Positions 2,592 to 19,077 of a stretch of DNA of 64,000 nucleotides are shown here, one piece after another (positions within the stretch are counted from its first letter, which is position 1; each line of letters starts with the position of its first letter). Both the position numbers and the translations under genes were made by a program. This stretch comes from Frondihabitans australicus (GTDB lineage: Bacteria > Actinomycetota > Actinomycetes > Actinomycetales > Microbacteriaceae): assembly GCF_003634555.1 (NCBI RefSeq), contig NZ_RBKS01000001.1, positions 992,001 through 1,056,000 on the forward strand, in the 5' to 3' direction. The notes under the pieces are model-generated. The model was not told the DNA's origin, made no database searches, and saw only the letters and a list, made by a program, of their open reading frames with translations.

Positions 2592-3671
2592 ATGCGTCGC
2601 ATCATCGTCCTCGGCTCGACCGGCTCCATCGGCGTTCAGGCGCTCGACGTCATCGCCCGCAACCCGCACCTGTTCGAGGTCGTCGGGCTGTCCGCCGGCA
2701 CGAACCGCGAGAAGCTCGCCGAGCAGGCGGCGGAGTTCGGCGTCGAGCACACGGCGCTGGGAGCCGACGAGTCCGTCAGTCTCGTCGAGACCGTCGCCGC
2801 GGACGTCGTGCTCAACGGCATCACCGGCTCGGTCGGCCTCGGCCCCACTCTCGCCGCCCTGCGCTCGGGCGCGACCCTGGCCCTCGCCAACAAGGAGAGC
2901 CTCATCGTCGGCGGCGACCTCGTGAAGGGCCTCGCGGCGCCCGGCCAGATCGTCCCGGTCGACTCCGAGCACTCCGCGCTGGCCCAAGCCCTGCGCTCGG
3001 GCACCCACGACGAGGTGCGCCGGCTCGTCCTCACGGCGTCGGGCGGCCCGTTCCGGGGTCGGACGCGCGAGAGCCTCCGTGACGTCAGCCCGAAGGCGGC
3101 CCTGGCGCATCCGACGTGGGACATGGGCCTCGTCGTCACGACCAACTCCGCCACGCTCGTCAACAAGGGTCTCGAGATCATCGAGGCGCACCTGCTCTTC
3201 GACATCGACTACGACCGGATCGACGTGGCCGTGCACCCGCAGTCGATCGTCCACTCGATGGTCGAGTTCACCGACGGGTCGACGCTCGCACAGGCCTCGC
3301 CGCCCGACATGCGGCTGCCGATCTCGCTGGGGCTCTCCTGGCCGGATCGCGTCCCCGGCGTCGGCGTCCCCCTCGACTGGACCACGGTCCAGACCTGGAC
3401 CTTCGAACCCCTCGACGACTCGGCGTTCCCCGCGGTGGGCCTCGCGAAGGAGGTCGGGCGCGCTGGATCGACCTACCCCGCCGTGTTCAACGCGGCGAAC
3501 GAGCAGGCGGTCCACGCGTTCCACGAGGGCCGCATCGGCTACCTCGATATCGTCGACACCGTCAAGGCGGTCGTCGACGCGCACGAGCCCGCCTCGGCCG
3601 ACCTCGAGGGCGTTCTCGACGCCGAGCGCTGGGCGCGCACCCAGGCGGATCGGATCCTGAGCCGCGCGTAG
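2592..3671 (+). CDS. dxr: 1-deoxy-D-xylulose 5-phosphate reductoisomerase
   Basis: This 359-residue protein converts DXP to 2-C-methyl-D-erythritol 4-phosphate with NADPH, the committed step of the MEP isoprenoid pathway in the cytoplasm. The NADPH-binding GSTGSIG motif lies at residues 8-14, and the family-typical [20 protein letters not shown] (metal-binding Asp and Glu), and [16 protein letters not shown] blocks are present. Length is slightly below the usual 380-400. The start is fixed by the leaderless -10 hexamer. In actinobacteria dxr is usually followed directly by rip and ispG; here those genes come 8.3 kb later. Confidence 0.97.
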
Positions 3672-3680
3672 CCGCCCACG

Positions 3681-3755
3681 CCACGCCGCGCCACGGCCCG
3701 TCGCGCCACGCCGCGCCACGGCCCGTCGCGCCACGCCGCGCCACGGCTCGCCGGG
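3681..3755 (+). repeat. Three tandem 25-bp direct repeats downstream of dxr
   Basis: Units lie at 3681-3705, 3706-3730 and 3731-3755. The first two are identical and the third differs in its last bases; a more degraded CCACGCC-rich tail continues to about 3795. The array contains almost only C and G with single A and T bases. It fills the gap between dxr and pnuC and has no coding frame on which I would rely. Confidence 0.85.
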
Positions 3756-3819
3756 CCCGCCCACGCCCTGCCACGCCACACCCCGCCCCGGCCACGCGAC
3801 GGGCAGACAGGGCGTTCCC

Positions 3820-3825
3820 TAAGCT
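3820..3825 (+). promoter_or_regulatory. -10 element (TAAGCT) of pnuC, leaderless type
   Basis: TAAGCT ends 7 bases before the ATG at 3832 and no Shine-Dalgarno sequence is present. Confidence 0.55.
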
Positions 3826-3831
3826 GATGGC

Positions 3832-4482
3832 ATGCTCACCTGGCTCGCCGCGAACTGGACCGAGGTGCTGGGGTTCGTCACGGGTGCTGCGTGCGTGCTG
3901 CTGGCGGCCCGGCGTCACATCGCGAACTTCCCCATCGGCATCGCGAACAACCTGGTGTTCATCTGGCTGTTCGTCGGCGCCGCGCTCTACGCCGACGCGG
4001 GTCTGCAGGTCGTGTACCTGGCGCTTGGCGTCGCGGGCTGGATCGACTGGGCCCGGCACCGCGACACCGCCGACGGCCTCGCGCTCGGCAGCACGCCCCG
4101 CCGCGCGATCGTCCCGCTCGCGCTGGCCACGATCGCCATGGCGGCCGCCCTCGTCTGGATCCTCACCGCCTTCACGAACTCCACGACGCAGATCGCCGAC
4201 GCGACCACGACCGCGGTCAGCCTCACGGCCCAGTACATGCTGAACCGCCGCTGGATCGAGAACTGGTTCGTCTGGATCGCCGTCGACGTCGCCTACGTCG
4301 GCCTCTACCTCGTCAAGGGCCTGTGGATCACCGGCGGCCTCTACCTGCTCTTCATCGCGATGTGCGCGGCCGGCTACCGCGGCTGGGTGCACGCCCGGCG
4401 TCGGCAGCAGGGCGCAGGATCGGGAACCCCGCCGACCGAAGCTGCTCACCCCGCGACCGTCCCCACCTCCCTCCGTGGCTGA
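3832..4482 (+). CDS. pnuC: PnuC-type nicotinamide riboside transporter
   Basis: 216 residues with about seven hydrophobic segments. The protein shows the PnuC pattern: an N-terminal helix, a NFPIGIANNLVFIWLF segment, GVAGWIDWARH after the third helix, and QYMLNRRWIENWFVWIAVD followed by VYLGLYLVKGLW-like residues. PnuC proteins are SWEET-related facilitated-diffusion channels for nicotinamide riboside, with net uptake driven by intracellular phosphorylation. That fits its 3' overlap of 8 bases with the NadR-like gene. The C-terminal tail is hydrophilic and low complexity. Confidence 0.93.
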   Translation: MLTWLAANWTEVLGFVTGAACVLLAARRHIANFPIGIANNLVFIWLFVGAALYADAGLQVVYLALGVAGWIDWARHRDTADGLALGSTPRRAIVPLALATIAMAAALVWILTAFTNSTTQIADATTTAVSLTAQYMLNRRWIENWFVWIAVDVAYVGLYLVKGLWITGGLYLLFIAMCAAGYRGWVHARRRQQGAGSGTPPTEAAHPATVPTSLRG

Positions 4483-5641
4483 CGCCCTCGCGACCGGCCG
4501 GGCGAAGCGCTTCGCGCGGGGGCTCGTCCTCGGCAAGTTCTACCCGCTGCACGCCGGTCACTCGAACCTGATCCGGGCGGGACTCGTGGCGTGCGAGGAG
4601 CTCGTGGTGGAGGTGCTCGGCTCGAGCGTGGAGTCGATCCCGCTGGAGACGCGGGTGGCGTGGCTGCGTGAGGAGCATCCGACGGCGACGGTGGTGTCCG
4701 CGATGGACGACGCGCCGATCGACTATGGCGATCCTGCGGTCTGGGAACTCCACATGCGGGTGATCGAGAGCCTGCTGCCGGGGCCGGTCGACGCGGTCTT
4801 CTCGAGCGACTCGTACGGCGAGGAGCTGGCGGACAGGCTGGGCGCCGAATGGGTGTGCGTCGACCCCGACCGGACCGCGACGCCGATCTCGGGGACGGCC
4901 GTGCGCGACGATCCCGCCGCGAGCTGGTGGGCTCTCGCTCCGTGCGTGCGCGCGACCCTCGCGCCCCGGGTGGTGGTGCTCGGCGCCGAGTCGACGGGCA
5001 GCACGACTCTGGCCGAGGCCCTGGCCGAGCGCCTCGAGACGCTGTGGGTGCCCGAGTACGGCCGCGAGCACACGATCGTCCGCGAGGGAGGGCTCGAGAC
5101 GCCGTGGCGCAGCGACGAGTTCGATCTCATCGTCGATCGGCAGATCGGGCTGGAGGACGCGGCGCTCCGGCGGGTTCCGCGTCCGCTGCTGCTCTGCGAC
5201 ACCGACGTCCTGGCCACCGCCCTCTGGCACGAGCGCTATGTGGGGAGCCCCGCACCTGCCGTCCTCGCCCGGGCGAGTGCCCATGCTCCTGCACTCTATG
5301 TGCTCACCGGTGACGACATCCCGTTCGTGCAGGACGGCTACCGCGACGGCGAGCACATCCGGCACGCCATGCAGCAGCGGTTTCGCGACGAGCTCGCGGC
5401 GCGCGAGGTCCCGTGGCTCGAGGTCACGGGCACGGTCGCGGAGCGCGTCGAGCAGGCCCTGCCCGCGATCGCTGAGACCGTGCGTCGCGCGCTGACGTAC
5501 GCCGTGCCGCTCACCGATCCGTCCGTCACCGGGGCGGGGCGGGAGTCGTCCGGGGCGGGGCGGGAGTCGACCGGGGCGGGGCGGGAGTCGACCGGGGCGA
5601 GGCAGGCCGCGTCGGCGACCGGCACCGGCCCGTCTCGCTAG
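4475..5641 (+). CDS. nadR: NadR-like NMN adenylyltransferase / ribosylnicotinamide kinase-type protein
   Basis: 388 residues. Residues about 17-165 form a nucleotidyltransferase domain with GKFYPLHAGHSNLI (the HxGH motif) and an ISGTAVRDDP segment (the ISGT motif). Residues about 165-350 are the kinase domain, with VVVLGAESTGSTTLAEAL as its P-loop. The P-loop carries Ser where the canonical Walker A lysine would be, which may impair or alter the kinase step. The C-terminus holds a GAGRES(S/T) heptapeptide repeat encoded by a 21-bp tandem repeat. The GTG start overlaps the end of pnuC; the pair should form a nicotinamide riboside uptake and salvage unit. Confidence 0.88.
   Translation: MADALATGRAKRFARGLVLGKFYPLHAGHSNLIRAGLVACEELVVEVLGSSVESIPLETRVAWLREEHPTATVVSAMDDAPIDYGDPAVWELHMRVIESLLPGPVDAVFSSDSYGEELADRLGAEWVCVDPDRTATPISGTAVRDDPAASWWALAPCVRATLAPRVVVLGAESTGSTTLAEALAERLETLWVPEYGREHTIVREGGLETPWRSDEFDLIVDRQIGLEDAALRRVPRPLLLCDTDVLATALWHERYVGSPAPAVLARASAHAPALYVLTGDDIPFVQDGYRDGEHIRHAMQQRFRDELAAREVPWLEVTGTVAERVEQALPAIAETVRRALTYAVPLTDPSVTGAGRESSGAGRESTGAGRESTGARQAASATGTGPSR
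5529..5612 (+). repeat. 21-bp tandem repeat inside the 3' end of nadR
   Basis: Three nearly identical 21-bp units lie at 5529-5549, 5550-5570 and 5571-5591, with a decayed fourth unit at 5592-5612. They are in frame and encode a GAGRES(S/T) heptapeptide. Unit number is probably variable between strains by slippage. Confidence 0.85.
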
Positions 5642-5644
5642 GGT
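5639..5644 (+). promoter_or_regulatory. -10 element (TAGGGT) of the AAA/HEXXH-vWA/adenylase operon
   Basis: TAGGGT overlaps the last bases of nadR and ends 8 bases before the ATG at 5652. This geometry favours the ATG at 5652 over the in-frame GTG at 5643 as the start of the AAA gene. Confidence 0.5.
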
Positions 5645-5651
5645 GGTCGGC

Positions 5652-7226
5652 ATGGCCCTGGGGGATCGCTGGAACCGTCTGTCGCAGTCGCCGACGAGGT
5701 CGTCCGCGCCACCGCCGCCCGGCGGTTTGCGCGCGGAGGACCTCTTCGCGAAGCCGCAGGCCGAGGCGGCGCCGCTCGACGAGAAGCTCCGCCGCGCGTA
5801 CTTCTGGCTCGTGAACCAGGCGGTCATCTCGCCCTTCTACGACATCGAGTTCTCGCGCGGCCAGCCGGTGCGCTTCGAGCTCGGCGATGCCGGCGCCGAA
5901 CTCCACCTCCCGACCGACCAGTCGTACTCGTCGAACGTGCTGATCCCTCTGCTCACCATGGCGGTGGGCGGCAAGTGCCTGCTCGTCGGCGGCCCGGGCC
6001 GGGGCAAGACCACGCTTGCGATCCTCATGGGCGTGCTCACCGGGTCCACCCCCGCCGACGTTCGCCGCAGCGTGCAGCAGGGTCAGCCCCAGCTCACCAT
6101 CTCGGATCTCGTGGGCATGCCCCTGCCGCGCGACCTCGTGCAGGCGGGCAGTCTCGCCGAGATCTCCATCGCCTGGCGAGACTGGCTGAAACGACCCGTC
6201 AAGATCGTCGACGAGTACAACCGGATCCCGACCAAGACGCAGTCGGCGCTCCTCACGATGGTGGCTGAAGGCTACGTCGAGAGTCACGACCAGATGCTCA
6301 CGACGAGTCCGCCGTCGGGCGTCGAGAGCTGGTTCTTCACGGCCAACGACGACGCCGGCGGCGGCACGTTCCCCGTGATCCAGGCCCTGCGTGACCGCAT
6401 GGACGTCACCGTCGCGGCGATGGGCTTCAACAGCCGATTCTTCGACGAGCTCGTGACCCGCATCGAGGCCGGCGAGAAGCCGGAGGAGCACGTGCCCGCC
6501 GAGCTGATCCTGACGCCCGACGAGCAGCGCGACCTGGAGGCCGCGATCCGCGCCGTTCCGGTGCCGCCGATCGTGAGGCGCCACATCGAGTTCTTCGCGT
6601 CGCACTTCGAGTTCGTGCAGCACGGCGGCCGACGATTCGAGTACCGCACCAAAGACACGGTATCGACCTCCGGCGGCCAGGTCGGCGAGGTCATCGACAG
6701 CAACTCCGGCGCCGACCTCCAGGTCGACCTCGGCGCCCAGACCCTGAACAGCCTGTCGGTGAGGTCGCTGCAGACCCTCATCACCTACGCCAAGGCGATC
6801 GCGTTCTTCCGCGGCCAGCCGGCCGTCGGCCTCGACGACGTGGCGGCGGTGCTCCCGTTCGCGCTTCGCGGCAAGCTGCTCCCGAACCCCACGCACCCCC
6901 GCTTCGACCAGGGCGACGACGTCGAGCTGGCGCACGACCAGGTGTCGTGGCTCGCCGACCTCTTCGCACAGTCGCGGCAGCTGTTCGGGCATCTCCTGCT
7001 CGAGAAGCGCGACCCCGTCGGCGACCTGCTCGCCCAGCTCGGCCAGGGCCTCGACGGCGTCTCGAGCGTGGAGGCGTCACGCCGGATCACGTCGATCGAG
7101 TCGCAGATCGCGGCCGTCGCGAAGCAGGGCAAGCTCTACGGTCGCCACTACGACGACCTGCTCACCCTCAAGTACCTCCACCAGCGATACACGAACTACC
7201 TGCTGTGGCTCGACGGCGGGCGCTGA
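5652..7226 (+). CDS. MoxR-type AAA+ ATPase of an unassigned vWA/adenylase cassette
   Basis: 524 residues. After a proline-rich N-terminus and a ~90-residue unassigned region, the AAA+ core starts with Walker A LVGGPGRGKTT at about residues 111-121. Walker B is KIVDEYNRIP near residue 186 followed by KTQSALLTMVAEG, and a sensor-1-like segment reads WFFTANDDAGGGTFPVIQALRDRMD. The DEYNR and ALxxxMxEG pattern is characteristic of MoxR ATPases, which act as chaperones or remodellers on vWA-domain partners. The C-terminal ~150 residues form a lid-like region. It is longer than common MoxR proteins (~330). The next gene starts 1 base after the stop. It is only distantly like the second MoxR protein at 14654. 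Confidence 0.8.
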   Translation: MALGDRWNRLSQSPTRSSAPPPPGGLRAEDLFAKPQAEAAPLDEKLRRAYFWLVNQAVISPFYDIEFSRGQPVRFELGDAGAELHLPTDQSYSSNVLIPLLTMAVGGKCLLVGGPGRGKTTLAILMGVLTGSTPADVRRSVQQGQPQLTISDLVGMPLPRDLVQAGSLAEISIAWRDWLKRPVKIVDEYNRIPTKTQSALLTMVAEGYVESHDQMLTTSPPSGVESWFFTANDDAGGGTFPVIQALRDRMDVTVAAMGFNSRFFDELVTRIEAGEKPEEHVPAELILTPDEQRDLEAAIRAVPVPPIVRRHIEFFASHFEFVQHGGRRFEYRTKDTVSTSGGQVGEVIDSNSGADLQVDLGAQTLNSLSVRSLQTLITYAKAIAFFRGQPAVGLDDVAAVLPFALRGKLLPNPTHPRFDQGDDVELAHDQVSWLADLFAQSRQLFGHLLLEKRDPVGDLLAQLGQGLDGVSSVEASRRITSIESQIAAVAKQGKLYGRHYDDLLTLKYLHQRYTNYLLWLDGGR

Positions 7227-7227
7227 C

Positions 7228-7908
7228 ATGACGCGCCGACCCGGTCACGCGGTGAACGAGGGGATCATCGTCGATCCCGGCTCCGAGCCGCCTGTCGTGA
7301 GCGAGTACGACGTCGCGCAGTCGGTCGAGAACGTCGCGGCCTGGGGCGGCGACCCCGCGCTCTACCTGCACTTCCTGGGCGCCGCGGTCCGCACCGATCC
7401 CGGTGGCGACTTCCTCGCCCTGTCGTCGCTCGCCGCCTGGCGCTCGGGCGTCATCGACCTGGCGCAGGATGCACGCGGTCGCCTCGCCGACGCCGGCCTC
7501 GGCCCCGAGGTGGCCGGCGCCGCCCTCGGCCTGCCCGCCGACCGCGTCGGCGAGTTCGCCCGCGCCCAGGAGCGCGACCCCTTCGCCTGGCCGCCGACCG
7601 ACGATGGCGCAGGCCTGCGGGTCGTCGGCAGCGTCGGAGGCTTCCGCGGCCTGTGGGGCCCGTGGACCGCTCCGCCGCGCGAGACCGTCACAGTGGCGCC
7701 CGGCGTGTTCCGCCTCATGAGCGGCGACGAGTCCTGGGAGGTCGTGGCCGACGTCTTCGGCGCCAGGCTGCGGCGCGCGGACGACGCCTCGCAACCGGGC
7801 GGCACGGCCACTGCCACCGGCTCCGGCTCCGGCACCGACACCGACACCGTGCGACTCGTCACGTCGCCGACCTCCTACCTCGCCTATCTGATGCGGGGCG
7901 CCGCATGA
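7228..7908 (+). CDS. Uncharacterised protein of the MoxR/vWA cassette
   Basis: 226 residues, not recognised. The N-terminus has an acidic EYDVAQSVENVAAWGGDPALYLHFLGAAVR segment and a helical middle with AWRSGVIDLAQDARGRLADAG. A central VGSVGGFRGLWGPWTAPP stretch is followed by a low-complexity Gly/Thr/Ser tail and a short hydrophobic end (SYLAYLMRG). No signal peptide or clear transmembrane helix is seen. Its position, 1 base after the AAA gene and with an ATGA overlap to the HEXXH-vWA gene, argues that it is an obligate partner of that cassette, perhaps an adaptor. Confidence 0.7.
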   Translation: MTRRPGHAVNEGIIVDPGSEPPVVSEYDVAQSVENVAAWGGDPALYLHFLGAAVRTDPGGDFLALSSLAAWRSGVIDLAQDARGRLADAGLGPEVAGAALGLPADRVGEFARAQERDPFAWPPTDDGAGLRVVGSVGGFRGLWGPWTAPPRETVTVAPGVFRLMSGDESWEVVADVFGARLRRADDASQPGGTATATGSGSGTDTDTVRLVTSPTSYLAYLMRGAA

Positions 7909-9803
7909 ACGCGCTCCCGCTCACGCCCGAGCAGCGCGCCGCCTGGCAGTCCGCCCAGGCGCTCTGGGGCGTCTCCCTTCACGACCCGCTCGCCCGGCCC
8001 GACGCGCACGAGGGGTCGTTCGCCTGGTTCTCGTTCCCGCCGCAGGTCTGGTTCGACCTCCGGCATCCGGCGGCGCACGGCATCGAAGGATGCCTCGAGT
8101 CGATCTTCGCCCACGAGATCGGCCACCACGTGCTCTCGCCGAGCACGAAGCAGGACTCCCTCAAGATCCGGCATCAGATGGCACGCGCGCTCGCCGCGAC
8201 CGGCGTCGTCGACGAGACCGTCCCCGAGATCGCCGGCTGGTGCTCGAACGTGTGGTCGGACATGCTCATCAACGTCCGCGTCGCCGAGCTCCAGCGGCTG
8301 CGCGACGTCGATCGTGCGACGGACGCGGGCGGGCCCGTCGAGCCCGAGATGATCGCGATGTGGCGCATCCTGTCGCACGCCTCCTCGCAGGACCGCCTGT
8401 GGTGGGTCGTGCTGCGCGCCTACGAGATGCTGTGGTCGAGACCGGCCGGCACCCTCGCCGCGAGGCACGCGCCGGCGGCGCCCGAACCGGCGCACCACGG
8501 CTCGACCGGTGCGGCACCAGCGCGAGCAGAGCAGGCTGCCTCCGACGATCTCGCCCGGGCGTTCGCCGATCGCCGGGCCCTCGAGGCGGCCCTCGACGGA
8601 CTCGCGCTCACCGATCCGGAACTCGACGCGCAGGCCCTCGCCGACACCGTCCGCACCTTCGGGGCCGATCCGGTCAGCGGCGCGCTGCGCTTCGGCATGA
8701 TCGCGGCGGGGTACTTCGCCGAGCAGCAGAGGGCGTCGGGCATTCGCGATCCTGCGCCCTCCGGAGCCGGCTCCGTGTGCGGCGGTCAGCTCGGCCAGGG
8801 CCCGGCGTCGCCCGGCGATCTCGTCGCGGTGCTGGCCGACGCGCGCCTGCACGAGACGCCGGAGCACCCCGCCGCGGTCGGCCTCGATCAGGGCGCAGGA
8901 GCAGCCGGAACCTCGGCCGGCCAGGGCTACGGCGCCGCCGACACCCTGCGCCTCTACGCCGCCAGCGACCAGGCCGCGGTGCTCTCCGCCTGGTACCAGG
9001 CCGAGGCGAAGCCCTGGGTGAGGCCGCTCGTGCAGGCGTCGGTCGCCCCGGTCGCCGCGGACGACGCGATCCCGGGTGCGCTGGAGGAGTGGTCGCTTGG
9101 CGACGACCTCTCGGCGATCGACTGGGTCGAGACCCTCGGGCGCGGCACGACGGTGATCCCCGGCGTCACGACCCTGCGGCGGGACAGCGTGCCCGACGCC
9201 CCGCCGCCGCCGCGCGAGAGCGTGCACCTCGACCTGTACATCGACTCGTCCGGGTCCATGCCGTCGCCGTCGAGCGGCTCGCCGGCGGTGCTCGCCGGGA
9301 CGATCCTGCTCCTGTCGGCGCTCCGGGGCGGAGGCCGTGTCCGCGTGACGTCGTTCAGCGGCGCCGGCCAGGTGGCGGGCATGGAGGGGTTCACCCGCGA
9401 CCGGACCCTCGCGTTCGCGTACCTCACGACGTTCTTCGCCGGCGGCACGGTATTTCCCCTCGACCTGTACGCCTCCCGCTATCGCACGCCGCCGCACCTG
9501 GGGGAGCGCCGCCACGTCGTCGTGCTCTCGGACGACGGGCTGTCGTCGCTCTTCGGCGCCGGCCAGTCGGCGGGCACCGGGGTGGCGGCCGACGTGCGAC
9601 GACGCCTCGACACCGCGACCCTGCTCGTGCAGGACCCCCGGCGCTCGGTCGAGGAGGAGGCACGCGACGCCGGCTACGACACCCTGTACGTCGACGACAT
9701 GCGCGACGCCCCGAAGGCGTGCGTCGAGCTCGCGCGTCGGCTGCTCGCTCCGCCCGAGGTCACGGGCACAGCGGCCGGATCCAGGCGAGGTGCACGTGGC
9801 TGA
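7905..9803 (+). CDS. HEXXH-motif and vWA-domain protein (putative metallopeptidase-like)
   Basis: 632 residues, starting at an ATG that overlaps the previous stop. An N-terminal region carries FAHEIGHHVLSP with the HEXXH pattern at about residues 70-74, as in zinc metallopeptidases. After a long alanine-rich, poorly conserved middle, a C-terminal vWA domain begins LDLYIDSSGSMPSP, giving the MIDAS DxSxS at about residues 447-451. It continues with a GGGRVRVTSFSG strand, TTFFAGGTVFPLDL (the MIDAS Thr region) and RHVVVLSDDGLSS. No signal peptide is present, so it is probably cytoplasmic. The vWA is the expected docking surface for the MoxR ATPase encoded two genes upstream. Whether the HEXXH site is catalytic is not known; I see no obvious third ligand. 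Confidence 0.75.
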   Translation: MNALPLTPEQRAAWQSAQALWGVSLHDPLARPDAHEGSFAWFSFPPQVWFDLRHPAAHGIEGCLESIFAHEIGHHVLSPSTKQDSLKIRHQMARALAATGVVDETVPEIAGWCSNVWSDMLINVRVAELQRLRDVDRATDAGGPVEPEMIAMWRILSHASSQDRLWWVVLRAYEMLWSRPAGTLAARHAPAAPEPAHHGSTGAAPARAEQAASDDLARAFADRRALEAALDGLALTDPELDAQALADTVRTFGADPVSGALRFGMIAAGYFAEQQRASGIRDPAPSGAGSVCGGQLGQGPASPGDLVAVLADARLHETPEHPAAVGLDQGAGAAGTSAGQGYGAADTLRLYAASDQAAVLSAWYQAEAKPWVRPLVQASVAPVAADDAIPGALEEWSLGDDLSAIDWVETLGRGTTVIPGVTTLRRDSVPDAPPPPRESVHLDLYIDSSGSMPSPSSGSPAVLAGTILLLSALRGGGRVRVTSFSGAGQVAGMEGFTRDRTLAFAYLTTFFAGGTVFPLDLYASRYRTPPHLGERRHVVVLSDDGLSSLFGAGQSAGTGVAADVRRRLDTATLLVQDPRRSVEEEARDAGYDTLYVDDMRDAPKACVELARRLLAPPEVTGTAAGSRRGARG

Positions 9804-10518
9804 CTTCTTCTCCCGCTTCCGCCGGGGTTCGCAGGCGGCGACCGCCGAGACGGACGTGCTCGACCGCTGGATTCGGCGCGGAGACGACGAGGTCGCCGCC
9901 TGGGACTCCGCACGGCCCGGCCCTGCCGTCGATGACATCTCGGCGCGCATCTCGTCGGTGCCGAAGGTCTTCCTCGACGACGCCGTCGACCTGGTCGCCC
10001 TGGCCGGGGACGTCTTCGACGACCTCTACCGCCTGTCCACCGCGGGCGGACCGCCGGCCGAGCGCAGGAGCGGAGTCGGCGCCCAGCTCGTCGAGACCCT
10101 CGCCGACATCGCCTCGAGCGGCGTCCCCTCGGCTCGGCAGGCCGCCGCCATCGGCCTCTGGGTCTACGCGTCGACCGACGAGATAGGCCCGATCACGCCC
10201 CCGCTGTCGCCGTTCTGGGCCCCGCGCGTCATCGCCGCCCTCGCCTGGCGCCTGTCGTCCGTGGTGCCGCCGAGCGAGTGGGTGAGCGACGCCGAGCGCC
10301 GTGACGAGGCGGCCAGGGTCGTGCTGCTGTGGTCAGGCTGTCTGCCCGCCGGTGAAGACCTCGAGACGGCCCGGAGCCTCTTCGCCATGCGTGACTCGCT
10401 GCAGCGCAATCAGGCGATGGCGGCCGCCCTCGCCGAGCAGCGGCACCGCCTCGAGGTGAAGCGGAAGCTGGAGGAGGCCAGGGCCCGAGAGGCGGCCGCC
10501 CGGCCGAGCATGGAGTGA
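9790..10518 (+). CDS. Uncharacterised helical protein of the MoxR/vWA cassette
   Basis: 242 residues, not recognised. GTG codons at 9790 and 9796 are both possible starts; the first overlaps the vWA gene by 14 bases. The protein looks mostly alpha-helical, with ARISSVPKVFLDDAVDLVALAGDVFDDLYRL, a repeat-like middle (RQAAAIGLWVYAS, VIAALAWRLSS) reminiscent of HEAT-type helices, and a charged coiled-coil tail (about residues 205-240, EQRHRLEVKRKLEEAR). Tight overlap with genes on both sides (GTGA with the adenylase gene) makes it part of the same operon. Confidence 0.65.
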   Translation: MHVADFFSRFRRGSQAATAETDVLDRWIRRGDDEVAAWDSARPGPAVDDISARISSVPKVFLDDAVDLVALAGDVFDDLYRLSTAGGPPAERRSGVGAQLVETLADIASSGVPSARQAAAIGLWVYASTDEIGPITPPLSPFWAPRVIAALAWRLSSVVPPSEWVSDAERRDEAARVVLLWSGCLPAGEDLETARSLFAMRDSLQRNQAMAAALAEQRHRLEVKRKLEEARAREAAARPSME

Positions 10519-11954
10519 CCGACATGGACGACCGGCGGCCCGACCCGGACGCACCCGACCGCCGGCCCGACCCGGACGTGCCCGACCCGCTCGCGCTCGA
10601 CGAGTACCGCCCGCACTGGACGGCCGTCCTCACCGACGCCGAGCGCTGGCCCACGATGACGCCCGAGGCCGAAGGCCGACTCCGAGCCCTCCGCCACCAC
10701 CCGCTCGCGCCGGCCTGGACCCACGCCACGGGCGACAGGCTCACGGCCGACGGCATCGTGCGCGCTCGAACTCCTCTGCCGCTCGACGGCTGGCTCGACG
10801 AGCACCTCGCCACGGCGCGGCGCTTACCGGCGTACCGCGGCTACGACGGGCCACTCGACGCTCTCGGCGACTTCCCGCTGCTGAGCCGCGCCGACCTCGT
10901 CGACGACGTCTCGGCGTTCGTCCCGCTCGACGCCGACTTCGACCTCATGATCCACGGCTCGAGCTCGGGCACGTCCGGCAGCGCGCTCCTGATCCCCGAC
11001 CACGTCGAGGACGTCGCGCGCACCTTCCATCTCATCGTGTCGCTGGTTCGCGGCGCGGGCCGCGACTGGCGGCCCGACCCTCGGCGCATGGCGCTCGCTC
11101 AGCTCGTCCACCAGCGGCAGGCGTTCACCTACGCCTCCCTGCTGTCGAGCTTCGAGTTCGCCACGATGGCGCGGGTCAACCTCCACCCCTCGCAGTGGCG
11201 CGACACCGCGCAGCGCGACGGCTTCCTCCGGGCGCAGGATCCCCAGGTCCTCACGGGCAATCCGACCAGCCTGGGCGACCTGCTCGACCCGGCCCTCGTC
11301 GGAGCCCTGCACCCGCTGGCGATCGTCTCGGGCGCCATGCACCTCGAGCGGCCGCTCCGGGAGGCGCTGCACGACGCGTACGGGTGCCCCGTCATCGACG
11401 TCTACGGGCTTCACGAGACGCGGCCCATCGCCGCGAGCGTCGACGGCGGGCCGCTGTTCGTCCTCGACCGCAGGCTCGTCGTCGAGATCGTCTCACCCGC
11501 GGGCGACGTGCTGGGCGAGGGCGAGTTCGGCGAGATCGTGGTGACGGCGGGGGAGAACCCCCTGCTGCCGCTGGTCCGGTATCGCACGGGCGACTTCGGG
11601 CGGCTCCTGCGCGTCGACGGCCGACCGGCCCTGGCCGATCTCGAGGGCCGCGAGGCCACGGTCTTCCTCGCGGGCGACGGAGCCGCGGTGCCGTGCGTCG
11701 ACCTCACCCAGCACCTGCAGACCGGGGGAGCCCTGGGCTGGTCGGTGGCGCAGGAGCTCTCGGGAGACGTGACGGCGACGATCGTCCGCGGCGACGCCGA
11801 CCTCATCCGCCGGACCCTCTCGCTGCTCCTGAGACGCGACGTCACCGTCACTCGTGTCGACACGCCGGCGGGCCTGGGCGAGGGGAAGCCCCGGCGCTAC
11901 CGTTCGGACGTGGACCCGGGCGTCCAGGGCGCGCACGGCCAGTTCATGGCCTGA
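10515..11954 (+). CDS. PaaK-like adenylate-forming enzyme of the MoxR/vWA cassette
   Basis: 479 residues (GTG at 10515; an in-frame ATG at 10524 is an alternative). The ANL-superfamily motifs are visible: the P-loop-like HGSSSGTSGSAL near residue 150, DVYGLHETRPIA near residue 300 and VRYRTGDFGRLL near 357, the last with the ATP-binding Asp. The pattern is nearest phenylacetate-CoA ligase (PaaK) and related carboxylate-activating enzymes. The N-terminus has a short Asp/Arg/Pro repeat. The enzyme probably adenylates a carboxylate, but no acyl-CoA pathway genes or carrier protein are nearby; its partners are an AAA ATPase and an HEXXH-vWA protein. The substrate is unknown. Confidence 0.72.
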   Translation: MTDMDDRRPDPDAPDRRPDPDVPDPLALDEYRPHWTAVLTDAERWPTMTPEAEGRLRALRHHPLAPAWTHATGDRLTADGIVRARTPLPLDGWLDEHLATARRLPAYRGYDGPLDALGDFPLLSRADLVDDVSAFVPLDADFDLMIHGSSSGTSGSALLIPDHVEDVARTFHLIVSLVRGAGRDWRPDPRRMALAQLVHQRQAFTYASLLSSFEFATMARVNLHPSQWRDTAQRDGFLRAQDPQVLTGNPTSLGDLLDPALVGALHPLAIVSGAMHLERPLREALHDAYGCPVIDVYGLHETRPIAASVDGGPLFVLDRRLVVEIVSPAGDVLGEGEFGEIVVTAGENPLLPLVRYRTGDFGRLLRVDGRPALADLEGREATVFLAGDGAAVPCVDLTQHLQTGGALGWSVAQELSGDVTATIVRGDADLIRRTLSLLLRRDVTVTRVDTPAGLGEGKPRRYRSDVDPGVQGAHGQFMA

Positions 11955-11960
11955 GTCACG

Positions 11961-11966
11961 TACGCT
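11961..11966 (+). promoter_or_regulatory. -10 element (TACGCT) of rip, leaderless type
   Basis: TACGCT ends 8 bases before the GTG at 11974. It supports that start and indicates that rip has its own promoter independent of the upstream cassette. Confidence 0.5.
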
Positions 11967-11973
11967 CGTCCGC

Positions 11974-13341
11974 GTGGAAACCGCACTGCTCTTCGTGATC
12001 GGCATCGTCGTCATCGTCGTGGGCCTCGTCCTGTCGATCGGCCTACACGAGATCGGACACCTGATCCCCGCCAAGCGGTTCGGGGTGAAGGTCGGGCAGT
12101 ACATGATCGGCTTCGGGCCGACGCTGTGGTCGACTCAGCGCGGCGAGACCGAGTACGGCGTCAAGGCCATCCCGCTCGGCGGCTACATCTCGATGTCGGG
12201 CATGTTCCCGCCCCAGAAGACCGTCGAGGTCGCCGAAGACGCCCTGGTCGGCGCCGCGGCCGGTCCGGGCGCCCGCACCGCCACCACGAGCATCTTCGGC
12301 ACCCTGACGCAGGATGCCCGGGACGCCAGCGCCGAGACCGTCGCCCCGGGCGAGGACGACCGCACGTTCTACCGGCTGGCCGTGCCGAAGCGCATCGTCA
12401 TCATGCTCGGCGGCCCGGTGATGAACCTCCTCATCGCGATCGTGCTCTACGCCGTGGTGCTCTGCGGCTTCGGCACCCAGCAGGTCTCGACGACCGTCGG
12501 GAGCGTCTCGGAGTGCGTCCTCCCGGCCTCGTCGACCGCGACCTCGTGCCCCGCCGGTGCGACTCCGTCGCCGGGTGCGGCGGCCGGCATCCGACCGAAG
12601 GACACCATCGTCTCGATCGACGGCACGCAGATCACGAGCTGGACCCAGTCGACCGCGATCATCCAGAAGTCGGCGGGCACGACCCTCGACGTGGTGGTGC
12701 GCCGAGACGGCGCTCTGAAGACCCTCCACGTGACCCCGTTGCGGTCGGAGCGCTACAAGACCGACTCCAGCGGCAACTACGTCCTGAACGCCGCGGGCAA
12801 GAAGGAGACCGAGGAGGTCGGCTTCGTCGGCATCGGCGCCGCCTACGAGCGCCAGCAGGAGCCGCTGACGGCCGTCCTCCCCGCGGTCTGGAGCAACGTG
12901 ACCGAGGTCGGCTCCCTGATCGTGCACCTGCCGCAGAAGGTCGTCCAGACGGCCGAGTCGACCTTCACCGGGCAGAAGCGCGACCCGAACGGTCCGGTGA
13001 GCGTCTTCGGCGTCGGCCGGCTCGCCGGCGAGGTCGCGACGCTCCACTCCGTGCCGATCCTGGACCGCCTCTCGACCCTGGTCGGGCTGCTCGCCAGCCT
13101 CAACGTCGCGCTCTTCGTGTTCAACCTGATCCCGCTGCTGCCGCTCGACGGCGGGCACATCGCCGGCGCGATCATCGAGGGAGTCCGCCGCTTCTTCGCC
13201 AAGGTGTTCAAGCGTCGCGACCCGGGGCCGATCGACATCGCGAAGGCGGCACCCCTGACCATGGCCGTCGTCGCGGTCCTCGGCGTCATGAGCGCGATCC
13301 TCATCTACGCCGACATCGTCAATCCCATCTCGCTGGGCTGA
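11974..13341 (+). CDS. rip: Site-2 intramembrane metalloprotease (RIP/RseP family)
   Basis: 455 residues. The first transmembrane segment holds GLHEIGHLIPAKRFGVKVGQYMIGFGP with the zinc-binding HEXXH at about residues 25-29. The second conserved motif LIPLLPLDGGH gives the third ligand Asp at about residue 392. Between them lie two further membrane segments and a PDZ domain (PGAAAGIRPKDTIVSIDGTQI). Such proteases cleave anti-sigma factors or other single-pass proteins within the membrane; in mycobacteria Rip1 is the homologue. The GTG start is fixed by the leaderless -10 and a 1-bp-resolution match to the family N-terminus. It precedes ispG, as is usual in actinobacteria. Confidence 0.93.
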   Translation: METALLFVIGIVVIVVGLVLSIGLHEIGHLIPAKRFGVKVGQYMIGFGPTLWSTQRGETEYGVKAIPLGGYISMSGMFPPQKTVEVAEDALVGAAAGPGARTATTSIFGTLTQDARDASAETVAPGEDDRTFYRLAVPKRIVIMLGGPVMNLLIAIVLYAVVLCGFGTQQVSTTVGSVSECVLPASSTATSCPAGATPSPGAAAGIRPKDTIVSIDGTQITSWTQSTAIIQKSAGTTLDVVVRRDGALKTLHVTPLRSERYKTDSSGNYVLNAAGKKETEEVGFVGIGAAYERQQEPLTAVLPAVWSNVTEVGSLIVHLPQKVVQTAESTFTGQKRDPNGPVSVFGVGRLAGEVATLHSVPILDRLSTLVGLLASLNVALFVFNLIPLLPLDGGHIAGAIIEGVRRFFAKVFKRRDPGPIDIAKAAPLTMAVVAVLGVMSAILIYADIVNPISLG

Positions 13342-14653: not shown

Positions 14654-15673
<1,020 letters not shown>

Positions 15674-15676
15674 GCC

Positions 15677-16564
15677 GTGGCCGGGCTCCTGCTCCGGGTG
15701 AAGACGACGATGTCGATCGTCGCTCACCGCAAGACCCTCGACCTGCTCGAGGGCGGCTACGCGTCGATCCATCGCGGCCGGAGCCACGACTTCGACGACC
15801 TGCGCGCCTACGTGCCGGGCGACGAGGTCAAGGACATCGACTGGAAGGCGTCGGCCCGCCACGACGAGCCCCTGGTGAAGCGCTACATCGCCTCCCGTCG
15901 GCACCAGCTGGTGCTGCTCGTCGACGCGGGCCGCAACATGGCGGCGACGGCCGAGAGCGGCGAGAGCAAGAAGGAGATCGCGATCCTCGCCGCCGGCGCG
16001 CTGGCCTGGATCGCCGCCCAGCACGGCGACGTCGTGGCGCTCACGGTCGGCGACGAGTCGGGCGTGCGGTCGTATCCGGGCGGGCAGCGCGACGAGCATC
16101 TCGAGCGCCTCCTGCGGGTCGTCGACGAGCGCGTGTCGCTGGGGGCGCCGAGGAGCGACGTCCGGGCCCTGCTCGACTCGGTCGCGCGGGCCTTGCGCAC
16201 ACGTTCGATGCTGCTGGTCGTCACGGACGATCTCGCTCTCGACGAGGGGCATGTGGCGATCCTGCGACGCCTGCGCACTCGCCACGAGATCCTCTGGCTG
16301 ACCATCGGCGACGCCGACCTCATGCGACGCGCCGAGCGTCCGGGCGAGGTCTATGACGTGCAGGAGGTCGCCGCCCTCCCCGCCTACGTGCGCGGTAACC
16401 GACGCCTCGCCGCCCTGTTCGAGGAGGCCGCCGTGCAGACGGCCGAGTCCACCGAGCAGCGGCTCGCGCAGCTGGGCGTCGTGAGCCACCGCATCGCCAG
16501 TCGCGACGAGGTGGTCCCCGGGCTCCTCGCGCTCCTCGAGAAGCAGCGCCGTGCTGGGCGATAG
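15677..16564 (+). CDS. DUF58 domain protein
   Basis: 295 residues. The DUF58 signature is SIHRGRSHDFDDLRAYVPGDEVKDIDWKASARHDEPLVKRY, followed by a vWA-like Rossmann core (HQLVLLVDAGRNM..., MLLVVTDDLALDEGH). DUF58 proteins nearly always lie next to moxR and are thought to bind the ATPase partner or its client. No membrane anchor is present in this version, unlike many longer DUF58 proteins. The GTG start follows the MoxR stop closely; an ATG at 15710 is possible but would remove the conserved lead-in. Confidence 0.88.
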   Translation: MAGLLLRVKTTMSIVAHRKTLDLLEGGYASIHRGRSHDFDDLRAYVPGDEVKDIDWKASARHDEPLVKRYIASRRHQLVLLVDAGRNMAATAESGESKKEIAILAAGALAWIAAQHGDVVALTVGDESGVRSYPGGQRDEHLERLLRVVDERVSLGAPRSDVRALLDSVARALRTRSMLLVVTDDLALDEGHVAILRRLRTRHEILWLTIGDADLMRRAERPGEVYDVQEVAALPAYVRGNRRLAALFEEAAVQTAESTEQRLAQLGVVSHRIASRDEVVPGLLALLEKQRRAGR

Positions 16565-17027
16565 GGGCTTCTTCGGGCCCGCGCAGTACGAGTGGTGGGC
16601 GCTCTACCTCGTGATCGGCGTTCTGCTGGTCGCGCTCGTCGTCGCCTGGTTCGTCTTCGTGTCGCGCTTCAGCCGCACCCGCGTGCCGCGACCGGTCGTC
16701 GAGGCGCCCCGTCGCCCGGCCGACCTGCGCCTCCTGCAGGCGAAGTACGCGGGTCTCATCGACGAGGTCGAGGCCGAGCACCGCGCCGGCCGACTCGGTG
16801 ACCGCGCCGTGGCGAGACGCCTGAGCCTGCTGCTGCGGTTCTTCGCCTCCGAGGCGTCGGGCGTCGACGCCCAGGTGATGACCCTCTCCGATCTCCGCCT
16901 CGCCCGACTCCCGACGGTGACCGGGGCGGTCGAGGGCTACTACCCGCCCGCGTTCCGCGCCTCGTCCGAGACGGATGCCGCCGAGGCCGTCGCGACGGCC
17001 CGAGAGGTGGTGCGCTCGTGGAACTGA
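16551..17027 (+). CDS. Small membrane protein of the Bat-like operon
   Basis: 158 residues from a GTG that overlaps the DUF58 gene by 14 bases. A short N-terminus is followed by one strong transmembrane helix (about residues 16-38, WWALYLVIGVLLVALVVAWFVF region). The cytoplasmic helical tail contains AKYAGLIDEVEAEHRAGRLGDRAVARRLSLLLRFFASEASG. It resembles the DUF4381-like components of MoxR/vWA operons only in position and architecture; I do not recognise a named family. It overlaps the next gene by 10 bases. Confidence 0.75.
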   Translation: MLGDRGFFGPAQYEWWALYLVIGVLLVALVVAWFVFVSRFSRTRVPRPVVEAPRRPADLRLLQAKYAGLIDEVEAEHRAGRLGDRAVARRLSLLLRFFASEASGVDAQVMTLSDLRLARLPTVTGAVEGYYPPAFRASSETDAAEAVATAREVVRSWN

Positions 17028-18016
17028 TCTTCTGGTGGATGCCTCTCGCCGCCCTCGGCGCGGCCCTTCTGGGCGCCGGCCTGTACGTGCTGTGGCGGCG
17101 CAGGAGCACGGGCACAGCCTCCCGCGGCACGCCCGTCGCCCACAGCGAACGCCTCACGGCCCTCCCCGAGTACCGTCGCGTCCTCCGTCGCTACCGGACG
17201 CTCCTCGGCGCCCTCCTCGTCCTCGTGATCGTCGCGGCGTCCTCCGGCGTGCTGCTGGCGTCGCGCTCGGCGAGCGTCGAGACGGTCACCCCGCAGTCGT
17301 ACAAGCGCGACATCATGCTCTGCCTCGACGTCTCGGGGTCGATGACCGACGTCGACGCGAAGATCGTCGACACGTTCGCCTCGCTCGCGTCCGACCTCCA
17401 CGGCGAGCGGATCGGCCTGACGATCTTCGACAGCTCTGCGGTCACCGTCTTCCCGCTCACCGACGACTACTCGTACGTGAAGAGCGAGCTCACCACCTAC
17501 CGCGACTCGTTCCGCTCGCAGGGCGAGAAGGGCGTCCAGTACTGGCAGGGAACCGAGCTGGGCCAGGGTGCCTCGCTGATCGGCGACGGCCTCGCCTCCT
17601 GCGTCCTCGGCTTCGACGGCGACAAAGGCTCGACGAGACCGAAGTCGATCGTTCTGGCCACCGACAACTACGTGAACGGCGAGCCGCTGCTCACCCTGAC
17701 GCAGTCCGCGGCGCTGGCGACGAAGCAGAACGTGCGCGTGTACGCGATCGACCCGGTCAACGACCAGGCCGACGGCACGCTCGACTCGGTCGCCCTCGAC
17801 CTCAAGACGCAGGCCGACTCGACCGGCGGAGGGTTCTACGCGCTCGGCGACAACGACACCGTGCCCTCGATCGTCCAGAAGATCGACCGGCAGGAGGCCG
17901 GGCTGTTCACCGGGTCGAAGCGGCTGGTCGTCACCGACCATCCCGCGCCGTTCGCGATCGCGGCCCTCCTCCTGGTCCTCGCGGTCCTCGGCCTGCTCTG
18001 GCGGGTGAGGCTGTGA
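17018..18016 (+). CDS. vWA domain membrane protein (BatA-like)
   Basis: 332 residues. Two transmembrane helices near the N-terminus flank a short loop, and a third lies at the C-terminus (FAIAALLLVLAVLGLLWRVRL). The vWA domain between them starts IMLCLDVSGSMTDVD with the complete MIDAS DxSxS at about residues 104-108. It continues through LTIFDSSAVTVFPLTDDY and PKSIVLATDNYVNGE. This matches BatA-type proteins whose vWA faces the exterior or periplasm-equivalent. It overlaps the second vWA gene by GTGA. Confidence 0.88.
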   Translation: MELIFWWMPLAALGAALLGAGLYVLWRRRSTGTASRGTPVAHSERLTALPEYRRVLRRYRTLLGALLVLVIVAASSGVLLASRSASVETVTPQSYKRDIMLCLDVSGSMTDVDAKIVDTFASLASDLHGERIGLTIFDSSAVTVFPLTDDYSYVKSELTTYRDSFRSQGEKGVQYWQGTELGQGASLIGDGLASCVLGFDGDKGSTRPKSIVLATDNYVNGEPLLTLTQSAALATKQNVRVYAIDPVNDQADGTLDSVALDLKTQADSTGGGFYALGDNDTVPSIVQKIDRQEAGLFTGSKRLVVTDHPAPFAIAALLLVLAVLGLLWRVRL

Positions 18017-19077
18017 ACGGGCTCGTGTGGCAGCCGCTCCTGCCGGTGTGGCTGATCGTCGTCGTCGCAGTGGCGGGGGTGGGGTTCGCCGCCTGGCGCG
18101 CTGTCGCCGAGCGCTCCAGCCGACGGATGATGCTGGCGTGGGTCCGTCGCGGGCTCATCGTGGCGCTGATGCTCGTCGTCGTCGCCCGCCCCGGCATCCC
18201 CGGCGGCTCGTCGCAGGCGTCGGTCGCCGAGCTCAACGTCTACTTCGTCGTCGACACGACGTCGAGCTCCGTCGCGCAGGACTGGGACGGCGACAAGCCG
18301 CGCCTCGACGGCATGCGAAGCGACATCGAGCGCATCACCGACGACCTGGCCGGTGCCCGCTTCTCGCTGATCACGTTCGACAGCTCGGCGCAGCTCCGGG
18401 TGCCGCTGACCTCCGACTCGTCCGCCCTCGTCACGGCCGTCAAGGCCATGCGGCAGGAGATCACGAAATACTCGCACGGCTCGTCGATCAGCGAGGCGAA
18501 CTCGCTGCTGGCGTCGACGCTCGCCTCCGCTCATCGCTCCCACCCGCAGCGCGCGAACGTCGTCTACTACCTCGGCGACGGCGAGCAGACGATCTCTTCG
18601 GCTCCCGGATCCTTCTCGGCGGCACACGCCAACACCGACGGCGGGGGAGTCCTCGGCTACGGCACGAGCCAGGGCGGACGCATGCGGACGTTCGACGGCT
18701 ACGGCGACGAGTACTCCACCAAGTCGTACATCAAAGACACGACGAAACCCGGCGACCCCGACGCGATCTCGCACATCGACCCGGCGAACCTCCGCACGAT
18801 CGCCGCCCAGCTCGGCGTGCCGTACCTCCACCGCGAGGCCGGAGCATCGCTGGCATCGGTCGTCGACCCCGCCAAGCGCGGCCACATCGTGAGTGAGGCG
18901 GGGCGGACGGCGTCGATGCTCGACCTGTACTGGGTTCCCGCGATCCTGGTGTTCCTGCTGCTGTTCGTCGAGATCGCCGTGGTGGCCAGAGCGCTCGGCG
19001 AGGTACGCTCGCCGCGACGCTCGGCGGGCCCCGGCCCGGGCCCGCGTCGTCCGCAGACGAGGGGAGCAGCGCGATGA
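18013..19077 (+). CDS. vWA domain membrane protein (BatB-like, modified MIDAS)
   Basis: 354 residues from a GTG overlapping the previous stop. Two N-terminal transmembrane helices and one C-terminal helix (WVPAILVFLLLFVEIAVVARAL) frame a vWA domain. The first MIDAS strand reads YFVVDTTSSSV, that is DxTxS rather than DxSxS at about residues 81-85. The FSLITFDSSAQL and VVYYLGDGEQT strands are retained. It is the typical second vWA partner of MoxR operons. Its C-terminal tail is Pro/Arg/Gly-rich. The following gene starts with an ATGA overlap. Confidence 0.85.
   Translation: MNGLVWQPLLPVWLIVVVAVAGVGFAAWRAVAERSSRRMMLAWVRRGLIVALMLVVVARPGIPGGSSQASVAELNVYFVVDTTSSSVAQDWDGDKPRLDGMRSDIERITDDLAGARFSLITFDSSAQLRVPLTSDSSALVTAVKAMRQEITKYSHGSSISEANSLLASTLASAHRSHPQRANVVYYLGDGEQTISSAPGSFSAAHANTDGGGVLGYGTSQGGRMRTFDGYGDEYSTKSYIKDTTKPGDPDAISHIDPANLRTIAAQLGVPYLHREAGASLASVVDPAKRGHIVSEAGRTASMLDLYWVPAILVFLLLFVEIAVVARALGEVRSPRRSAGPGPGPRRPQTRGAAR

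Follow-up and report, generated by a model that had tools for sequence, protein, structure and literature searches.

A conserved operon of the MoxR/vWA kind

The DNA analysed here, in the following referred to as the window, is a stretch of 64,000 nucleotides from Frondihabitans australicus (contig NZ_RBKS01000001.1, positions 992,001 to 1,056,000) which carries an operon of the MoxR/vWA kind, pnuC-nadR-moxR-u226-hexxh/vWA-u242-paaK, that is real, widely conserved and without any description that we could find. We tentatively propose, as a reading that comes close to an even chance, that this patchily distributed chromosomal operon encodes one machine similar to NorQD, which would serve u242 and the PaaK-like adenylase in chemistry linked to nicotinamide adenine dinucleotide (NAD). 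The partnership of the genes appears well supported by genome comparison, while binding, metal, substrate and product are what we infer.

Five of the genes are located on the plus strand at 5652-11954, overlapping or nearly abutting each other. A gene for a MoxR-family AAA+ ATPase (5652-7226, with a possible alternative GTG start at 5643) is followed after 1 nt by u226 (7228-7908), encoding a protein of 226 residues, which overlaps by 4 nt the gene for a 632-residue protein combining a HEXXH motif with a vWA domain (HEXXH-vWA; 7905-9803). The latter shares 14 nt with u242 (9790-10518), encoding a 242-residue protein, and u242 shares 4 nt with the gene for a PaaK-like adenylate-forming enzyme of the ANL group (10515-11954). 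Coordinates, frames and spacing are as given in an earlier interpretation of this DNA, the sequence-only reading, which had been made from the letters without database searches.

The five genes recur together far beyond chance, since tblastn located them in the same order in all six other genomes of the family that possess the HEXXH-vWA gene and since all five were present in 68 of 74 loci. A scan of genome contigs had yielded at least 169 confirmed relatives, the best 80 of 169 being used as named loci; after the duplicates L047 and L052 had been dropped, 86 loci including the window entered the counts, and the synteny count comprises the 74 (window included) with enough flanking sequence, leaving out 12 with short flanks. 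MoxR and u226 were each found in 72 of these 74 loci and u242 and PaaK each in 70, and the number of loci with all five genes rises to 70 once tblastn matches are added (MoxR in L088, u226 in L105). Joint conservation across genera with the HEXXH retained, which the sequence-only reading had named as support for its idea, is thus seen in 70 of 74 loci and in 85 of 85 HEXXH-vWA homologues. Neither the adenylase nor the HEXXH motif is consistently absent from the neighborhood, as only three loci are devoid of u242 and PaaK and a single one has the HEXXH-vWA gene alone.

The distribution is patchy. The HEXXH-vWA gene was detected in seven of 199 genomes of the family (window included) and the cassette in nine of 248 genomes of the order. 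Ten of 198 genomes sampled from the phylum gave matches, namely the window, one genome of another family (G162), in which all five protein families were found, and eight with distant pairs. These pairs (L034-L041), from two other families of the phylum, match MoxR and vWA at about 25-28% identity and are not accompanied by u226, u242 or PaaK; the eight genomes, in which no open frame combining HEXXH with DxSxS turned up, were excluded from the cassette counts. According to the record titles, hosts include the actinobacteria Cryobacterium, Agreia, Microbacterium, Mycolicibacterium and Cellulomonas, further Janthinobacterium, Massilia, Halopseudomonas and Sphingomonas, and organisms labelled Chloroflexi or Anaerolineales, Acidobacteria, Verrucomicrobia and Planctomycetaceae. 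Carrier genomes are recorded under Actinobacteria, Proteobacteria, Chloroflexi, Acidobacteria, Verrucomicrobia and Planctomycetes. One contig with the cassette, from a metagenome bin that bears the title Borreliella garinii (L097), is apparently mislabelled. Searches by tblastn gave no match in 72,556 plasmid records (two queries) or 50,697 phage records (one query), and all 139 pattern matches in viral contigs failed confirmation.

pnuC and nadR as members of the unit

The boundary which the sequence-only reading had drawn around five genes proved too narrow. Directly upstream, likewise on the plus strand, lie pnuC (3832-4482), the first gene of the unit, and a nadR-like gene (4475-5641) that ends 10 nt before moxR, and their membership, which would link the unit to NAD salvage, appears well supported. 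Comparison within the genus demonstrates that the seven genes form one block, which a genome has either complete or not at all: dxr is followed in the window and in genome G640 by pnuC, nadR, MoxR, u226, HEXXH-vWA, u242, PaaK and a gene for an M50 protease, while in five of seven genomes dxr and the M50 gene are direct neighbors with no block gene between them. As the gap between dxr and M50 is filled by all seven genes or by none, the block is gained or lost as a whole in this genus. Three of the five block-free genomes were included in the nadR survey and gave no nadR match.

PnuC is identified as a nicotinamide riboside transporter (NCBIfam TIGR01528, 81.6 bits at a cut-off of 42.45; Pfam PF04973, E=4e-50). 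The NadR-like protein, with nicotinamide mononucleotide (NMN) adenylyltransferase and ribosylnicotinamide kinase domains, matches TIGR01526 with E=2e-53 and 181.7 bits, under the cut-off of 341.15, matches four solved NadR-type sequences with E=2e-30 to 9e-11, and displays the motifs GKFxPxHxGH (adenylyltransferase) and SGTxxR. In its kinase domain the Walker A lysine is replaced by serine (residue 176). At this position, 53 aligned linked NadR proteins have lysine in 26, serine in 19 and threonine in eight cases, and six unlinked or cassette-free actinobacterial NadR proteins also lack the lysine.

Of the 74 loci, window included, 49 have a linked nadR and 38 have pnuC. Among all 86 loci, 54 have nadR, 28 of them before moxR on the same strand and 26 elsewhere. 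The gap to moxR ranges from -8 to 402 nt for 27 of the 28 upstream genes, 22 lying within 10 nt either way, and amounts to 3448 nt for the remaining one. All of the 26 others are located after paaK, 10 of them overlapping its end by 4 nt, with the exception of that in L114, which is on the opposite strand. Thus, nadR adjoins opposite sides of the cassette in different lineages. Within the family, a nadR match was obtained in 13 of 199 genomes, in all seven with the cassette compared to six of 192 others (Fisher p 8e-10, uncorrected for kinship). Four of the seven have nadR at another site, beside pnuC; of the six cassette-free genomes, three match the kinase domain only and in one the gene is interrupted. 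At E<=1e-20, nadR was found in 19 of 248 genomes of the order, comprising all nine with the cassette, in each of which its distance to the HEXXH-vWA gene is about 7 kb at most, and 10 of 239 others (Fisher p 1e-11, likewise uncorrected). The window genome is part of both surveys, which may overlap in further genomes. In a NadR tree the linked actinobacterial proteins group together, and all unlinked ones but that of G391 (L137) are placed outside this group. In G391, which has no HEXXH-vWA gene, a linked-type pnuC-nadR pair stands by itself and may be what is left of a lost cassette.

Given the 10 nt between nadR and moxR, transcription of the unit probably starts at or before pnuC (3832). The single promoter that had been predicted at the start of the five genes found no support: a scan of 3500-12200 for sigma-70 consensus promoters, the only type covered, identified none. 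GC-rich short tandem repeats are present at 3676-3801 (before pnuC), 5528-5603 (3' end of nadR) and 10529-10601 (5' end of paaK).

Core proteins and the u242-PaaK pair

The five proteins can be divided into a core and a pair. Both u242 and PaaK are missing in L077, L081 and L086, which retain MoxR, u226 and HEXXH-vWA, and L091 and L119 carry the u242-PaaK pair in duplicate, the two copies being separated by a radical SAM gene. This joint loss and joint duplication demonstrate, at the level of gene content, that u242 and PaaK form a second pair beside a core of MoxR, u226 and HEXXH-vWA. A radical SAM gene is an additional member of the operon in some lineages (nine of 74 loci); the only such protein scanned, that of L112, has a weak SPASM match.

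MoxR matches Pfam AAA_3 and AAA_lid_2 just above cut-off, and its Walker A motif (GGPGRGKT, residues 113-120) and Walker B region (187-191) are invariant among eight aligned members. u226 has no match in Pfam, NCBIfam, PADLOC or PHROGs; it is recognized by its conserved position and by conserved columns, with W71, G74, G137, G144 and D175 invariant among 70 aligned sequences and a GGFRGL-GGPW-like motif. The HEXXH-vWA protein likewise reached no family cut-off in these four libraries, the best match being Peptidase_M48 with E=0.12 around the HEXXH. The translated protein bears out the N-terminal HEXXH (HEIGH, residues 70-74) and C-terminal metal ion-dependent adhesion site (MIDAS; DSSGS, 447-451) noted by the sequence-only reading. 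Residues H70, E71, H74, N115, D119, N123, D447, S449, S451 and D543 are unchanged in all 85 aligned homologues. As relatives were scanned for with two peptide patterns, one containing HEIGHH and the other the MIDAS, the invariance of both motifs is partly by construction. Both are also kept in seven loci from whole-genome searches, where this does not apply. The alignment omits L118 through its length filter; in this locus from Duganella sacchari (10001-11767) the HEXXH-vWA gene is split into two adjacent open frames, by a frameshift or a sequencing error. A further peculiarity is found in L091 (Anaerolineales), where a gene for an FAD-dependent DAO-type oxidoreductase (8619-9962) is located between u226 and HEXXH-vWA, with the two u242-PaaK pairs and the radical SAM gene nearby.

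Structural modeling of the HEXXH-vWA protein (predicted local distance difference test score, pLDDT, 89.3) places the HEXXH on a helix spanning residues 61-77 and N115, D119 and N123 on a later one, 106-133. In zincins the HEXXH is on a helix and a third ligand on a later helix, and the N-terminal motif of the window protein may be called zincin-like. The C-terminal domain adopts a vWA fold, with the vWA domain of NorQ-bound NorD as top Foldseek match in the PDB (E=3e-5), and the protein ends about 18 residues past the last vWA helix. The vWA protein adjacent to MoxR displays the MIDAS pattern DxSxS...D.

u242 is also unnamed by Pfam, NCBIfam, PADLOC and PHROGs. Its model (pLDDT 91.6) is nearly all-helical, with a long C-terminal helix; an alignment of 67 sequences reveals invariant residues E173, R176 and E189, and the protein ends in a conserved tail. 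The last residue is glutamate in 66 of 78 sequences and position -4 is aromatic in 68 of 78; the last 15 columns have a mean top-residue frequency of 0.62 versus 0.40 for the whole protein (80 sequences). The tail of the window u242 has no aromatic residue. The PaaK-like protein carries the motifs SSSGTSG, YGLHE and YRTGD and a C-terminal lysine, K458, which is retained in 95% of 80 aligned sequences; the motifs expected of an ANL enzyme, which we take to be those termed A3, A5, A7 and A10 (the lysine), are thus present. Start codons of PaaK in the homologous loci were picked by a model and can be late, as is that of the window. Its family matches remain below cut-off, with 24 bits for Pfam AMP-binding (cut-off 29.9) and, as best NCBIfam match, 64.9 bits for the DVU_1553 AMP ligase (cut-off 300). 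Identification as phenylacetate-CoA ligase was rejected (TIGR02155, 38.6 bits at a cut-off of 646.3). The enzyme therefore shares the ANL motifs with PaaK and DVU_1553-type CoA ligases and differs from them in falling far below the curated cut-offs and in being paired with u242.

Comparison with known systems

Several known systems combine a MoxR-type ATPase with a vWA protein. One is the cobalt chelatase CobS-CobT. In Foldseek the alignments with phage CobT-like models cover most of the model at low TM-scores (about 0.2), but the HEXXH is absent from three of three CobT proteins examined, and a CobT identity of HEXXH-vWA was discarded as no Pfam CobT match was found at E<=1. Midasin similarly contains a vWA fold and is the partner of a MoxR-type ring. 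The closest resemblance of the vWA part is to NorD, which, with NorQ, also forms a couple of a MoxR ATPase and a vWA protein with intact MIDAS and acts as a chaperone for the insertion of iron. In that system a finger of the vWA protein enters the pore and metal is inserted (PMC13036017, PMC9976466), and NorD binds its target via the MIDAS and an acidic ligand (PMC9976466). The client is nitric oxide reductase, and HEXXH, adenylase and NAD genes are not mentioned in the accessible parts of these two publications.

The sequence-only reading had known of no named system with an added adenylase and a protease-like center on the vWA protein. This applies to the cassette as a combination, while the fusion itself has precedents. 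Jumbo phages encode a metallopeptidase-vWA protein beside a MoxR gene, according to the portion of PMC7824862 that was available, which provides a precedent for this part of the cassette. In addition, three of four DUF2201 (PF13203) proteins examined share the HEXXH, the N-x3-D-x2-[IV]-N spacing and a C-terminal vWA domain. In contrast to these, the window protein has no PF13203 match at E<=1, nor has the window genome any PF13203 match; comparison of the HEXXH-vWA and DUF2201 profiles gave a weak similarity (probability 7.5%, E 0.005 versus 0.16-0.71 for four unrelated profiles). The ternary systems of Kaur et al. 2020 also comprise a MoxR/vWA couple with further conserved genes. As far as the available text describes the four types, their further components differ, and no variable effector is seen here (PMC7159879). 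With the protein ending so soon after the vWA domain, type 4, in which a beta-propeller is fused after it, was rejected. The P-loop GXXXTAKS, reported as frequent in the FtsH and beta-propeller types, does not fit the invariant GGPGRGKT of the window MoxR. For VMAP, inactive STAND and FtsH (types 1-3), no Pfam, NCBIfam or PADLOC match was obtained in the five proteins, the presence of library models for each being unchecked.

We could not assign the cassette to any named system, in line with the sequence-only reading, with u226, HEXXH-vWA and u242 unnamed in the libraries; in a literature that was mostly non-subscription, we found no publication on MoxR together with PnuC, nor on MoxR with vWA and an adenylase. 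The idea of a conserved MoxR/vWA system with HEXXH and adenylase has stood, although it had missed pnuC-nadR and the pairing of u242 with the adenylase. A second, ordinary-looking MoxR cluster is located downstream in the window (MoxR 14654-15673, DUF58 15677-16564, vWA protein 16975-19077).

Proposed function and alternative explanations

In the mechanism that we propose, PnuC and NadR would supply NMN and NAD, and the HEXXH-vWA protein would sit in the pore of a MoxR hexamer, much as NorD is held by NorQ. ATP hydrolysis by the ring may then remodel a client that docks at the MIDAS. This client would be the u242-PaaK pair, with the conserved tail at the C-terminus of u242 as the simplest candidate for the acidic MIDAS ligand. 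PaaK would activate a carboxylate with ATP, and the putative metal site of the HEXXH domain may load metal or cut during maturation of u242-PaaK or of the product. The tie to NAD salvage suggests that this product would be made from, or used with, pyridine nucleotide. A bolder reading, that of a new kind of system in which the ring both loads and unloads u242 as a carrier via its free C-terminus and, with the dedicated adenylase, makes or attaches a group derived from pyridine nucleotide, with imported nicotinamide riboside as the source, is decidedly improbable.

The NAD tie itself would fall if pnuC and nadR were merely co-transferred neighbors and the five genes a chaperone system for an unlinked enzyme. 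We consider this unlikely: 25 of 74 loci have no linked nadR and G391 has the linked-type pair without the cassette, yet the side on which nadR adjoins the cassette differs between lineages, the four family genomes whose cassette is unlinked have a nadR of another lineage elsewhere, and all 16 cassette genomes of both surveys (window genome counted twice) possess nadR. Alternatively, the operon might make a cofactor and insert metal, with NadR making the nucleotide, PaaK activating a carboxylate and MoxR/HEXXH-vWA acting as metal insertase. By analogy, LarB, LarE and LarC build the nickel-pincer nucleotide from an NAD precursor through an adenylated carboxylate. The NAD-precursor genes, the retained adenylase motifs, the radical SAM gene in nine of 74 loci, the FAD oxidoreductase gene in L091 and metal insertion by NorQD, as described in the accessible part of PMC13036017, are all consistent with this idea, but the radical SAM gene is not always present, the Pfam and NCBIfam matches of the scanned proteins include no Lar family, and inspection of the neighborhoods by eye, without a systematic scan, revealed no recurring carboxylase, sulfur-transfer or apo-enzyme gene, so that we regard it as quite unlikely.

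It also appears rather improbable that u242 serves as a precursor or carrier and that its conserved C-terminus undergoes maturation, with the HEXXH domain cutting it, PaaK activating it and the radical SAM enzyme, in loci that have one, modifying it, so that a peptide-derived or peptide-conjugated product results. The conserved end of u242 and its joint movement with PaaK speak for such a maturation, but u242 is confidently folded and helical, unlike usual precursor peptides, the aromatic residue is missing from the window tail, and the conserved tail may be a docking site only. Moreover, ANL enzymes are generally known to act on small acids. Finally, a relative of the MoxR-vWA ternary systems that acts against phages or in some other conflict, with NAD as target, might be suspected from the patchy distribution (seven of 199 and nine of 248 genomes) and from the combination of a MoxR/vWA core with an NAD theme. 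A defense role is not supported, and we judge it highly improbable. The best PADLOC match is that of MoxR to TRIP13 (E=0.018); components of the four ternary systems, as given in the available text of PMC7159879, were not found in the Pfam, NCBIfam and PADLOC scans; the cassette was neither found in the plasmid and phage records nor confirmed in viral contigs; the active sites are invariant rather than hypervariable; and the window copy, to whose flanks the look for defense genes was confined, sits between dxr and the M50 gene. No toxin or nuclease family is among the significant Pfam, NCBIfam and PADLOC matches, in line with what the sequence-only reading had stated.

Returning to the NorQD-like machine serving u242 and PaaK, the operon adds three conserved proteins to which the libraries searched give no family name, present in hosts of many phyla, and in u242-PaaK it offers a clear unit of an adenylase and its partner. 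The tie to nicotinamide riboside salvage provides a first experimental handle, and through it NAD-linked chemistry would join metal insertion and complex assembly among the tasks of MoxR/vWA machines.

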